Positions 3,387 through 40,750 of a stretch of 40,750 nucleotides of DNA are shown piece by piece. Numbering within the stretch: the first letter of the stretch is position 1; every line of letters begins with the position of its first letter. This DNA is from Chloroflexota bacterium (GTDB lineage: Bacteria; Chloroflexota; Anaerolineae; Anaerolineales; Villigracilaceae). The DNA lies in the NCBI GenBank assembly GCA_013152325.1, contig JAADGN010000039.1, forward strand, positions 1 to 40,750. Direction: 5' to 3'. The translations under genes and the position numbers were made by a program. The notes below the pieces were generated by a model that saw nothing but the letters and a program-made list of their open reading frames with translations, did no database searches and was not told the DNA's origin.

Positions 3387-3424
3387 TTCTCCATTATTCA
3401 GTTGTTAAGGATACCCTGTAACAG

Positions 3425-3598
3425 GTAACCCCGCTTATGCCGTGTGCTGCTAAGTTTTGAACCTGCTTATGGCAGGTGGGTCCCGACGCAGAAATTTCGC
3501 CTTGGCTCAGGCCTATCGCGTAGCTTCTGTCAAAGAAGGACCCCTTTAGTACGTGTTGGTACAAAACGTTGGTGCGGCATCACGCGCACAGCAGGGTC
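3425..3598 (-). ncRNA. ssrS: Probable 6S RNA (RNA polymerase regulator)
   Basis: About 174 bases, the usual 6S size. The ends pair: ACCCTGC (3597-3591) with GCGGGGT (3434-3428), then ATGCCG with CGGCAT further in. The 3' side of the presumed central bubble carries a small hairpin, CCTGC-CATAA-GCAGG followed by TTCAAAAC, in the position where E. coli 6S has its bubble hairpin followed by the 3' strand with CGGCAT. GGGTCC and GGACCC form an apical-stem base. An extended -10 promoter (TGGTATAAAAT) ends about five bases before the proposed start. 6S RNA mimics an open promoter and binds the housekeeping holoenzyme. The identification rests on structure and a few short matches recalled from memory. 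Exact ends are uncertain by several bases. Confidence 0.6.
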
Positions 3599-3602
3599 AG
3601 AG

Positions 3603-35870: not shown

Positions 35871-36461
35871 TCACTTCTCCATCGCCTGCTCGAAAGCGGC
35901 GATTTTCTCTTCGTTCTTGAGCAGGTACCCGAGCTGGTCGAGCCCTTCCAGCAAACAGACTTTGCTGAACTCGTCTATCGGAAATGCGGCCTCCCGACCG
36001 TTGGGCAGCTTCACTGTTTGGGCATCCAGGTCAACGGTTACCCGCGTCGAGGGGTCGTCGGCAACCATTGCGAATAACTGTTGGTGGGTTTCCTCGTCCA
36101 CGATGATCGGGAGCAGGCCGTTTTTCAGGGAATTGTTCCGGAAAATATCCGCAAAGGACGTGCTGATGATGGCCCGGATGCCCCACCCGACCAGCGCCCA
36201 GGGGGCATGTTCACGGGACGAACCGCACCCGAAGTTGTCTCCGGCCAACAGGATCTGTGCGCCTTGGAATTGGGGTTGGTTAAGTGGAAAGTCGGGTTTT
36301 GGGCTTCCATCCGGCAGGTAGCGCCAGCCGGCGAACAGTCCTTCCTCCAATCCGGATTTGTCGATCACTTTAAGGTAGCGGGCCGGAATGATCTGGTCGG
36401 TATCGACATCGTTGTGGGGCAGTGGGATGAGTCGGGACGTGAGAATCTGGAATTTTTTCAT
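35871..36461 (-). CDS. leuD: Isopropylmalate isomerase small subunit
   Basis: A 196-residue LeuD. The start FQILTSRLIPLPHNDVDTDQIIPARYLK and the swivel-domain motif AGDNFGCGSSREHAPWAL are diagnostic, followed by IISTSFADIFRNNSLKNGLLPI. With LeuC it isomerises 2- to 3-isopropylmalate and probably citramalate to 3-methylmalate. The ATG is three bases after the leuC stop, so translation is probably coupled. Confidence 0.96.
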   Translation of the reverse strand: MKKFQILTSRLIPLPHNDVDTDQIIPARYLKVIDKSGLEEGLFAGWRYLPDGSPKPDFPLNQPQFQGAQILLAGDNFGCGSSREHAPWALVGWGIRAIISTSFADIFRNNSLKNGLLPIIVDEETHQQLFAMVADDPSTRVTVDLDAQTVKLPNGREAAFPIDEFSKVCLLEGLDQLGYLLKNEEKIAAFEQAMEK

Positions 36462-36464
36462 TGC

Positions 36465-37874
36465 TTAGCTCATGAATGTCCTGGGGTCGGTGACTTTGCC
36501 GGTGATCGCGCTGGCAGCCGCGGTGAGCGGACTGGCCAGGAAGGTGCGTCCGCCTTTGCCCTGGCGGCCTTCAAAGTTGCGATTGCTGGTGCTGACGGCG
36601 TATTGCCCGGGCTGCAACTGGTCTCCGTTCATCGCGATGCACATGCTGCATCCGGCATAACGCCATTCGCCGCCCGCATCCCGGACGATCTTGTCGATGC
36701 CTTCGGCTTCGGCTTGCCGGCGGATATTCTCCGAGCCGGGGACGACCAGCAGGCGCACGCCGTCGGCCACCTTGCGGCCTTTTAGCAACGAAGCTGCCAG
36801 GCGCAGGTCGCTCAGGCGTGAGTTCGTACAACTGCCGATAAAGACCACGTCCACGGGATGGCCGGTCAGCGGGCGACCGGGCTGCAAATCCATGTAGCGC
36901 AGGGCTTTTTCAAGGGCGGCGCGTTTTGCGGGGTCGGCTTCCTGTTCCGGATCCGGGACAGGCTGGCTGATGGGCGCGCCCATGCTGGGGTTGGTGCCAT
37001 AGGTGACCATCGGCTCCAGTTTGGAGGCGTCTATCGTCACAGATTTGTCGTAAACGGCGCCCGCATCCGAAGGAAGGCTGCGCCAGCGATCCAGGGCGGC
37101 ATCCCAGGCTGCGCCGCGAGGGGCAAATTGACGTCCGGCCAGATATTCGAAGGTTGCATCATCGGGGGCGATCATTCCGGCGCGTGCGCCGGCCTCGATG
37201 GACATGTTGCACAAGGTCATGCGGCCTTCCATGTCGAGGGCGCGCACCGCCGAACCGGCGAATTCGAAAACGTGGCCCGTGCCGCCGCCAATGCCGATCT
37301 TCGCGATCAGGGCCAGGATCATGTCTTTGGCGGCGACTCCCGGCTGAAGCTGCCCGTCGAAGTTGACCAGGTACGTTTTGGGGCGGTATTGCAGCAAACT
37401 TTGCGTGGCGAGCACATGTTCCACTTCGCTGGTGCCGATGCCAAAGGCCAGCGCGCCGAACGCGCCATGCGTGGATGTATGGCTGTCGCCGCAGACGATG
37501 GTCATGCCGGGCTGCGTAAGACCCAGCTCCGGCCCGATGACGTGCACGATCCCGCGTTCCGGGTGCTCCAGGTCGTAGAGCGGGATGCCAAAATCCGAGC
37601 AGTTGCTCTCGAATTGCCGCAACTGCCGGACGGCCATGTCGTCTGCCAGGGCCAGGGAGAGGGACAGCGTGGGCGTGGAATGGTCCATCGTCGCCACGGT
37701 ACGATCCGGGCGACGGACACGCAGCCCTTTCTGGCGCAGTCCGCTGAACGCTTGGGGGGAGGTAACTTCGTGCACCAGATGCAGGTCGATGTACAGGATC
37801 GAGGGCGAAGCCTGGTCTTTGGCGACGACGTGAACGTCCCAAACTTTTTGCAGTAATGTTTTCGGTTGTGGCAT
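36465..37874 (-). CDS. leuC: Isopropylmalate isomerase large subunit
   Basis: A 469-residue aconitase-superfamily protein. It has [25 protein letters not shown], the active-site [28 protein letters not shown], Cys-containing [13 protein letters not shown] (first cluster Cys), and [10 protein letters not shown] with the C-x2-C pair of the [4Fe-4S] cluster. The start lies nine bases after the stop of the small duplicated-motif gene. No clear ribosome binding site is seen, so coupling to that gene is likely. Length and motifs match the bacterial LeuC type. Confidence 0.97.
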
Positions 37875-37883
37875 GGCTGGATA

Positions 37884-38123
37884 CTATTTGTACAGTTCCG
37901 ACAGATCCCAGCGTGCGGGTATGGTTCTTGTTTCGGGAAAGGTCTCGATCTTGCCGGGCGCGTGAACTTCTTCGGTTTTCGGCGCTGGCTTGGAGGCCAT
38001 TAAACCCGATACGTCCCAATGGGCCGGTATGGTTCTTGTTTCGGGGAAAGTTTCGATGCGGCCTTCTTCGTGAACCGGCTCATCGACGGGTTGTTGCGCA
38101 TGTTTGTCGGTCTGGTTGGTCAT
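37884..38123 (-). CDS. Small protein with a duplicated TFPETRTIPA-WD motif, unknown function
   Basis: A 79-residue hydrophilic protein. Two copies of a block occur: GRIETFPETRTIPAHWDVSGL (about 21-41) and GKIETFPETRTIPARWDLSEL (about 57-77), joined by a Lys/Pro-rich linker. The duplication is also visible in DNA, where 37918-37937 and 38026-38045 are identical 20-mers. AAGGAGA precedes the ATG at good spacing, and the gene sits between leuA (29 bases) and leuC (nine bases) in the same orientation, so it is very likely translated. There is no membrane segment, Cys or catalytic motif. It is not a typical leucine-rich leader peptide. An adaptor, scaffold or regulatory peptide of leucine synthesis is one possibility; the function is unknown. 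Confidence 0.75.
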   Translation of the reverse strand: MTNQTDKHAQQPVDEPVHEEGRIETFPETRTIPAHWDVSGLMASKPAPKTEEVHAPGKIETFPETRTIPARWDLSELYK

Positions 38124-38152
38124 CGTATTCTCCTTAAAGTTGATAGGTGAAG

Positions 38153-39772
38153 TTATCCTGCAATCTCGGTGGGGGTTTCGGCAAGCCCAAAGCGCCCGCT
38201 GGCAACCAACAGTTTGTTCAGGGCGGCCAGATAAGCTTCGCCGGCCACGATGATGTCGGTATCGGCGCCGTAACCGCCATACGTGCGCGCGTGGGCTTGT
38301 CCGCTTTGCGGGGATGTGCGCTGAGGGCTGCTGCCGTTCTCGGGCTGTAGGCGTACGGTGACCTCGCCAATCGCATCGATGCCCTCCGTGACGGCATGGA
38401 CGTGAAATTCCAGCAACGTATTGGGCACGCCGACGATGGCGTCGATGGCTTTGTAGACCGCATCGACGGGGCCTGTGCCAATGGACGCCTGCACCAGCAG
38501 GTCGTCGTCGGGGCCGAGCAGACGGACGGTGGCGGTGGGCAGGCCAATCGTCCCGCAGGCGACCTGAAGACCGTCCAGGCGGTAGATTTCATGAGCCTGG
38601 TACATCTGGTCTTCGATCAATGCTTCCAGGTCTGCATCGGTAATGGTTTTCTTTTTGTCCGCCAACTCTTTGAAACGCTGGAAGGTGTAGGCCAGGTCGT
38701 CTTTTCCCAGGTCGTAACCCAACTCGGCCAGACGGACTTTCAACGCGTGCCGGCCCGAGTGTTTTCCCAGCACCAGACGGGAGCGATTGAGTCCAACGGT
38801 TTCGGGGCGCATGATCTCGTAGGTGGTTTCATTTTTAAGCATGCCGTCCTGGTGGATGCCCGCCTCGTGGGCAAAAGCGTTTGCCCCGACAATGGCTTTG
38901 TTCGGCTGCACTGACATGCCGGTATAGTTCGAAACCGTGCGGCTGATGCGGGTGATCTGCGTGGTGTCGATGCCGGTGGCGCAGCCATAGACCTTGCGAC
39001 GGGTGTACAGGGCCATGGCGATCTCTTCCAAAGAGGTATTTCCGGCCCGCTCGCCGATCCCGTTGACGGTCACTTCGACCTGGCGCGCCCCGGCTTGGAT
39101 CCCCGCCAGCGTATTGGCAGTTGCCATCCCCAGATCGTCATGACAATGGACGGAAACAACCGTATTTTCGATTCCGGGTGTGTTGGCGATGATCCCGGCG
39201 ATCAGTTTTCCGAATTCATCCGGGGTCGTATATCCGACCGTGTCCGGAATGTTGAGGGTGGTCGCGCCGGCCTTGATGGCCTCGCCCAGCACCAGGTAGA
39301 GGAATTCGGGCTCGCTGCGTCCGGCATCTTCGGGGGAGAATTCCACATCGTCACACAGTGAACGGGCATAGGAGACCATCTCGTGGACGCGCTCGACGAC
39401 CTCTTCGGGGTCCATGCGCAGTTTGTGCCGCATGTGGATGGAGGAAGTGGCCAAAAAGGTGTGGATGCGCGGCCGGGAGGCGTGACGGACCGCATCCCAG
39501 GCCGCGTCGATATCCGATTTCACGGCACGCGCCAGCCCGCAAATGATGGGGGGCTGGCCCGTCGAGGCGTTGCCCACTTCGACGGCGATGCGGCGGACGC
39601 CTTCCAGGTCGTCGGGGGACGCGGCGGGGAATCCCGCTTCAATGACGTCCACGCCCAGGCGAGCCAAACCGCGGGCGATTTCCAGCTTTTCGTTGGATGT
39701 GAGTGAAGCGCCGGGAGACTGCTCGCCATCTCGCAGGGTGGTATCGAAAAAGCGAATATAGTTATCCTGCAT
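38153..39772 (-). CDS. leuA: 2-isopropylmalate synthase
   Basis: A 539-residue enzyme that condenses acetyl-CoA with 2-oxoisovalerate, the committed step to leucine. The catalytic TIM barrel carries [59 protein letters not shown] and [13 protein letters not shown]. The C-terminal LeuA dimer domain, which binds leucine for feedback control, ends [22 protein letters not shown] Ser/Pro/Gln-rich insertion ([16 protein letters not shown]) interrupts that domain. The ATG is three bases after the ilvC stop. Confidence 0.97.
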
Positions 39773-39775
39773 AGT

Positions 39776-40750
39776 TTATTCTCCAGCTTTAATGGTTACG
39801 GGTTCTACGAATGGCATCATAGAACGCAACTCTGCGCCGACTTTCTCGATCAGGTGCCCCTGCTCTTTGCGCCGCTGCTCGTTGAACCAGGGCCGGCCGG
39901 CTTCATTTTCCTGTATCCATCCCCTGGCATAGGTGCCATCCTGGATGTCTTGGAGCAGTTTTTGCATGATTTTGCGGGTCTCTTCATTGATAAGCTGGGG
40001 GCCGGCGTGATAGTCGCCATGTTCAGCAGTATCGGAAATCGAGTAACGCATGTAATTCAGGCCGCCGCGGTACATCAGATCGACGATCAGTTTGAGTTCG
40101 TGCATACACTCGAAATATGCAAGTTCGGGTTGATAACCGGCATCGACGAGAGTCTCGAAAGCCATCTTCACGAGGCCGCTGACGCCGCCGCACAAGACAG
40201 CCTGCTCTCCGAACAAGTCGGTTTCGGTCTCTTCGGAGAAGGTCGTTTCCAGCACGCCGGCGCGCGTAGCGCCCAAAGCATAGGCGTACGAAAGCGCGTT
40301 GGCCTTGGCTTCCCCGCTGGCATCCTGGTGGACGGCCAGCAGCGCCGGGGTCCCGCCGCCCTCGGTGTACAGTTCGCGCACCCGGTGACCGGGCGCTTTT
40401 GGCGCGACCATGCTGACGTCCACGTCTTCGGGGGGCGTAATGGTCCCGTAGCGGATATTGAAGCCGTGTGCGAACATGAGCGTTTTTCCCTTGCCAAGAT
40501 GGGGGGCGATATATTCCTTGTAGATGGCGGGCTGCGCCGTATCCGGGGCCAGGAGCATGATGGTATCGGCCCACCGGGCGGCCTCGTCGATTGCGCTGAC
40601 GGTCAGGCCGTTGGCCTCGGCTTTGGCCCATGACTTGCTGCCTGGCCGCAGGCCGACCCGGACGTCTACGCCGCTGTCGTGCAAATTAAGGCTGTGGGCA
40701 TGCCCCTGGGAACCGTACCCAACAATGGCAACTTTCTTGCTGCGGATTAA
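39776..40750 (-). CDS. ilvC: Ketol-acid reductoisomerase, 5' end outside the window
   Basis: An open frame of 324 codons from the right edge to the TAA at 39776. The visible part starts in the Rossmann fold ([19 protein letters not shown]), then [16 protein letters not shown], whose Arg and Ser residues fit NADPH preference. It continues with [34 protein letters not shown], and the metal-binding [18 protein letters not shown]. It is a short class I enzyme missing only about 15-20 N-terminal residues. It converts acetolactate or acetohydroxybutyrate to dihydroxy acids for Val and Ile. It is the first visible gene of the operon; acetolactate synthase genes are likely further upstream. Confidence 0.97.

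Follow-up and report, generated by a model that had tools for sequence, protein, structure and literature searches.

Few bacterial operons have been studied as thoroughly as those for leucine, and the described elements closest to the gene reported here include the leucine attenuator leuL and regulatory upstream ORFs, which are short, lie directly before a leu gene and carry translation start signals, with leuL located at the head of its operon together with a terminator/antiterminator. MbtH-like proteins (PF03621) are small accessory proteins with a link to NRPS and an aromatic-Pro-x5-Pro-x-Gly-Trp arrangement, the consensus of which is SLWP-x5-PxGW (PMC7593251). A functional precedent is provided by the TCR tripeptide of the eukaryotic CIA machinery, a Trp-bearing motif ([LIM]-[DES]-[WF]) that stands at the extreme C-terminus of Fe-S clients such as yeast Leu1, or of their adaptors, and recruits Fe-S assembly to them; it is reported to be missing from the bacterial orthologues (PMC10623007). 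It illustrates how a short linear Trp motif, in the client itself or in a small adaptor, can serve the Fe-S isopropylmalate isomerase, and it has no sequence relation to the protein described below, for which it is a precedent in function only.

The gene considered here, which we refer to as X, lies between leuA and leuC on an Anaerolineae contig (the window, meaning the whole stretch of DNA that was analyzed, is 40,750 nt in length). Like leuL and the regulatory upstream ORFs, X is a short ORF directly before a leu gene and carries translation start signals, but it is found inside the operon, encodes proteins of 44–104 aa without a Leu run, and has an internal motif that is conserved as amino acids. 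The features of the window that are needed here are the following:

35871..36461, minus strand: leuD, small subunit of isopropylmalate isomerase
36465..37874, minus strand: leuC, large subunit of isopropylmalate isomerase, 9 nt downstream of X and with no Shine-Dalgarno (SD) sequence of its own
37884..38123, minus strand: X, the gene for a 79-aa microprotein, supported by the ORF call, its relatives and a core pN/pS of 0.27
37893..37949, minus strand: second motif copy of X, IETFPETRTIPARWDLSEL, residues 59–77, two residues before the C-terminus
38001..38057, minus strand: first motif copy of X, IETFPETRTIPAHWDVSGL, residues 23–41, aligned to the family core
38124..38141, minus strand: ribosome binding site (RBS) region of X, AACTTTAAGGAGAATACG, containing AAGGAG and directly before the ATG
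38153..39772, minus strand: leuA, 2-isopropylmalate synthase, the upstream neighbor of X

The ORF at 37884-38123 on the minus strand translates as MTNQTDKHAQQPVDEPVHEEGRIETFPETRTIPAHWDVSGLMASKPAPKTEEVHAPGKIETFPETRTIPARWDLSELYK. The original prediction that X is expressed agrees with its AAGGAG-containing RBS and with the short gaps on either side, 29 nt from leuA and 9 nt to leuC, and a strong anti-SD match at the start of X is found at 41 of 44 loci (median −8.8 kcal/mol). The same prediction had argued that X is not a leucine attenuation peptide, and this is borne out, as only 3 of its 79 residues are Leu, with neither a run nor a pair among them, and the gene is in the middle of the operon between leuA and leuC instead of at its head. 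The sole match in an Rfam scan of the window is a 6S RNA (RF00013, 72.3 bits, 3424-3600, minus strand), and no terminator/antiterminator position of the leuL kind applies to X. A leuL-type attenuator is thus rejected on composition and position.

That X is a genuine protein-coding gene under selection is demonstrated by comparison with its relatives. For the core, pooled pN/pS is 0.27 in the reading frame of X, whereas the two alternative frames give 1.4 and 1.9, which indicates that the core is under purifying selection, and for the whole ORF the values in close pairs are mostly 0.1–0.5. These values, the strong RBS of X in 41/44 loci and the retention of the core across several families leave virtually no room for the view that X is either spurious or a relic left between leuA and leuC, a view ruled out by conservation and for which the small size of X is the only point in favor.

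The first searches yielded four weak relatives, all of them located before leuC. A scan of the whole collection with the window protein as the sole query gave no relative, and it was the use of relatives as queries that revealed the family: with one of them, matches at E ≤ 0.1 were obtained in 62 of 150 genomes from the same family, of which the best 30 all lie between leuA and leuC. Profile searches then extended X to other families and to the window's own genus, such that more than 50 relatives of 44–104 aa with the same core are now recognized in several Anaerolineae families, mostly in genomes annotated as Anaerolineales or Chloroflexi bacteria; of the loci, 44 distinct ones were placed in a single scripted table and roughly a dozen others were inspected one by one. 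When the class was searched with a motif-core profile, the clear members were confined to a few families, and among 301 genomes searched across the phylum there was no convincing member outside the class Anaerolineae; on these searches X is specific to one class of Chloroflexota. The original prediction had proposed a search for its block in this phylum and would have counted a lack of homologues beside leu genes as its refutation. It is not refuted in this way, as homologues do adjoin leu genes in many relatives, single-copy forms included, while the fusions of X to Leu enzymes that it had also envisaged were not seen in the class and phylum searches, in which all strong matches were short ORFs and none was a LeuC or LeuD fusion. 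In two genomes of one family (loci L101 and L102) X is extended at its C-terminus by a further conserved tail, AAxMNGTAxEQHLR...YExPKxVV, and 26 nt of the gene overlap with leuC.

X is not assigned to any known family by the sequence searches that were carried out. No Pfam match was above cut-off for the window protein, 30 aligned members or 13 further variants, and the same was true of NCBIfam and PHROGs for X, including the absence of any match to LeuC or LeuD in Pfam and NCBIfam. A profile search of PDB sequences yielded chance matches only (e.g., calcitonin and chlorophyll a/b-binding proteins) and we found no paper that describes X, so the designation of X as uncharacterized stands.

The family core is F-P-x-P-x-T-I-P-x-G-W-D-x-S, or more fully F-P-E-P-x-T-[IM]-P-x-G-W-D-x-S, and the putative functional motif ends in -x-L. 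Core residues P4, P8 and W11 are invariant in 39 sequences although all four Pro codons occur, while the remainder of X is variable, often acidic and predicted to be disordered. In the window the motif takes the form IETFPETRTIPA-x-WD-x-S-x-L and is present twice, with P-A-H-W and P-A-R-W in the two copies where the family has P-x-G-W. The two blocks are identical in 17 of 21 residues, compared with no more than 8 in any of 2000 shuffles, and at the DNA level 43 of 63 positions are identical, with the codon differences consisting of 7 synonymous and 5 nonsynonymous changes. Hence the repeat in X is not a brand-new duplication of DNA. The two copies recognized at the outset are therefore real, but the description of the protein as essentially two copies of a 21-residue block goes too far, since they make up only about half of it and the rest consists of a non-conserved N-terminus and a spacer.

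Most X proteins have one motif and in three lineages there are two, these being the window's own genus (G000, G411, G422, G430, G436, G453, G458), G387, and G428/G435/G441. The own genus forms one clade in the LeuC tree with G387 apart, and the G428/G435/G441 lineage, which is absent from that tree, belongs to another genus. From their distribution the doublings appear to have arisen independently in the three lineages and would suit a binding motif. In the proteins of the window, of G387 and of the G428 type, no more than about three residues follow the second motif. Within the own genus, the first motif reads W-H-E-H (WHEHD) at the motif Trp and the second has W-H-C-x-x-C in several species and C-x-x-x-C in one. 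These His and Cys residues have been lost from the window X and are missing from most of the family, and thus metal binding cannot account for the family as a whole.

The core also invites comparison with the MbtH-like proteins, of which X might be a minimal relative that clamps a partner through F-P-x5-P-x-G-W as they do through W-P-x5-P-x-G-W. The spacing of the family core is identical to that of the MbtH consensus (PMC7593251), with F replacing W and with the two window copies departing from it at P-x-G-W, and the G387 protein matches PF03621 (E 4.9e-4). That match, at 19.9 bits, is below the Pfam gathering cut-off of 27 bits, however, and there is no PF03621 match for the window protein, 30 aligned members or eight further variants, no MbtH protein among the results of the PDB profile search, and neither the N-x-E-x-Q-x-S strand nor the C-terminal WTDxRPxSL in the X alignment. 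With the score below cut-off and the rest of the signature missing, membership of the MbtH-like family is rejected and even a distant relationship is very improbable. X also differs in that it is predicted to be disordered and is found in the leucine operon, next to leuA and leuC at nearly all loci, rather than being linked to NRPS.

The operon in the window, on the minus strand, is ilvC-leuA-X-leuC-leuD-cimA (citramalate-synthase-like)-leuB-ilvE, and in relatives ilvC is preceded by ilvD, ilvB and ilvN to give ilvD-ilvB-ilvN-ilvC-leuA-X-leuC-leuD-cimA-leuB-ilvE. The ilvC of the window (39776-40750, minus strand) shares 73.7% identity with its counterpart in G340, which is from a different family, but only ~32–33% with the ilvC in the same position in the window's own genus, and these identities suggest a xenologous swap of the ketol-acid reductoisomerase.

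At nearly every locus leuC directly follows X, even where leuA is not the preceding gene. X remains beside leuC with leuA not adjoining at loci L004/L070 (behind pckA), L099, L100 and L180; where leuA is separated, the gene before X is pckA (G387), inserted ORFs (G021) or a different gene (G129), and in G401 X is next to leuC with no leuA close by. Gene order in these four genomes therefore favors LeuC over LeuA or IlvC as the relevant neighbor. There are two exceptions. In G436, whose genome is 82% complete and gave no leuC, X directly precedes ilvD on a contig of 5.9 kb, and in G411 X and leuC are separated by an inserted 150-aa ORF (L145, 7373-7822, minus strand), the product of which has a hydrophobic N-terminus. 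The distance from X to leuC is −26 to 146 nt, with larger values of 289 nt in G021, 230 nt in G458 and 537 nt in G411, the last including the inserted ORF. At four loci (L028, L022, L029, L021) a palindromic repeat, TCATTGCGAGG...AGCAATCTC...CCTCGCAATGACA, has been inserted around X, between leuA, X and leuC, and the leuA-X gap of G412 (L033) contains tandem repeats of ~30 bases with a GGTGAGACG-type unit as well as a run of N.

At least 10 genomes have leuC but no X, and in these the leuA-leuC gap is either too short for X or empty of it. Of 26 genomes tested, most of them negative in the profile searches, 11 had no leuC match and X was present in only one of these, G436. When mapped onto the LeuC tree, the state of having no X involves ten changes, at least six of them on well-supported branches and scattered among X-bearing relatives. 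X was thus most probably present in the ancestor of the family and lost on repeated occasions, and these losses in several lineages make it an accessory gene that is dispensable over evolution.

The distribution of ribosome binding sites links the two genes further. Where SD sequences are counted as present at dG ≤ −5, the region upstream of leuC in the window, TGTACAAATAGTATCCAGCC, has none (dG +1.0), and the same is true of leuC behind X in general, with an SD in only 1 of 46 cases (median +0.4) versus 7 of 10 where X is absent (median −5.8; p = 5e-6 with related genomes treated as independent). In tree-independent pairs the SD of leuC is always opposite to X, by 4–5 to 0, which gives p = 0.06, the smallest value attainable with that number of pairs. 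In G314 the start of leuC, ATAAAAGGAAACC-ATG-ACA-AAT-CAA, is like the RBS and first codons of X, and here a deletion has apparently joined the start site of X to leuC. Since the leuC SD is nearly always absent with X and mostly present after its loss, the two genes are linked at the level of translation and not by position alone.

A translational role in cis, which the original prediction did not consider, is a serious alternative and the main rival reading, although we regard it as rather unlikely. X would be a leader cistron: ribosomes would load at its SD and gain access to leuC only once X has been translated, and this passage would be tuned by the conserved nascent peptide or its product. 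X would thereby set or sense the output of LeuC instead of binding an enzyme. The SD counts and the tree-independent pairs are in its favor, as is the AAAAGGAAACC-ATG-ACA-AAT-CAA start of G314, in which the RBS and first codons of X appear fused to leuC. X would then be a candidate for a regulatory upstream ORF with a functional nascent peptide, the peptide being conserved and leuC mostly lacking an SD where X is present. Against it are the wide range of X-leuC distances up to 537 nt, the long palindromic repeats within some of the gaps, the position of X before ilvD in G436, and a motif that doubles and varies in its distance from the stop codon. The start of leuC is also as accessible as other starts, with no special structure to hide or expose it. 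In addition, starts with no SD are common elsewhere in the operon in relatives, in genes that have no X before them (an SD is present in 7/34 cimA and 23/57 leuD). Given these cimA and leuD starts and the long or palindromic gaps, tight translational coupling is only a candidate.

The doubling of the motif, the variable X-leuC distance and the ilvD case favor a role in trans, whereas the RBS pattern favors one in cis. We tentatively propose that X acts in trans on LeuC(D) as an accessory motif protein and assign a rough probability of 0.4 to this reading, in which the partner and mode of action are inferred. X would be a small and largely disordered protein whose functional part is the linear Pro/Trp motif F-P-x-P-x-T-I-P-x-G-W-D-x-S-x-L, and this would dock as an accessory or assembly peptide onto the enzyme encoded downstream, LeuC or the LeuC-LeuD isomerase, with two copies of the motif providing avidity. 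Binding might, for example, stabilize the Fe-S enzyme or its assembly, and X would be made together with LeuC because the RBS is at X and there is none at leuC. LeuC and IlvD are both Fe-S hydro-lyases (dehydratases), and they are the products of the two genes found directly behind X, which in the own genus has HEHD and HCxxC at the motif Trp.

Several results count against LeuC(D) as the partner, namely the at least 10 genomes with leuC and no X, the absence of His and Cys from the window protein and the ilvD position in G436. Structure prediction lends no support to docking of X on the LeuC monomer. AlphaFold2 was given a natural X-LeuC read-through, where the frames match, with 14 read-through rows and 38 LeuC rows, and in the model X does not dock, with most of LeuC at a pLDDT above 90 and X at 30–44 except for residues 31–33, which alone reach about 50; an earlier model of poorer quality likewise had no docking. 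No LeuC column covaried convincingly with the presence of X (best p = 0.009, uncorrected over about 470 columns). Of the proposal that X would be a conserved small partner of LeuA, LeuCD or IlvC, conservation beside leu genes holds and gene order points to LeuC, while a partnership with LeuC gained no support from the AlphaFold2 models.

X could also serve another or a broader target in branched-chain synthesis, such as Fe-S handling shared by IlvD and LeuC, or a multi-enzyme complex, in which case its adjacency to leuC would reflect operon position only. The G436 arrangement, the shared Fe-S dehydratase chemistry of the two enzymes and the possible metal ligands WHEHD and WHCxxC in own-genus proteins fit such a role, but G436 is a single case on a short contig of an incomplete genome, ilvD itself stands at the head of this operon and the ligands are missing from the window X and most of the family, and we consider this unlikely.

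Roles in trans and in cis may hold together. In the combined form, X would be both a translational gateway to leuC and a Pro/Trp partner of the Fe-S isomerase: leuC would have given up its RBS such that the enzyme is made only with the peptide, and lineages that lost X would have had to gain an RBS at leuC. We put this forward as an unlikely reading. From the comparative analysis, X is coding and conserved, is tied to leuC by both position and RBS distribution, and has been lost repeatedly.

The leucine operon of Anaerolineae therefore holds an unrecognized gene under selection in its middle. The at least six losses of X, in each of which leuC is preceded by an RBS, are a natural experiment on whether small ORFs embedded in operons serve as gateways for translation, as enzyme partners or as both, and if X proves to be a partner, isopropylmalate isomerase would have an accessory peptide in bacteria, something for which we found no precedent.
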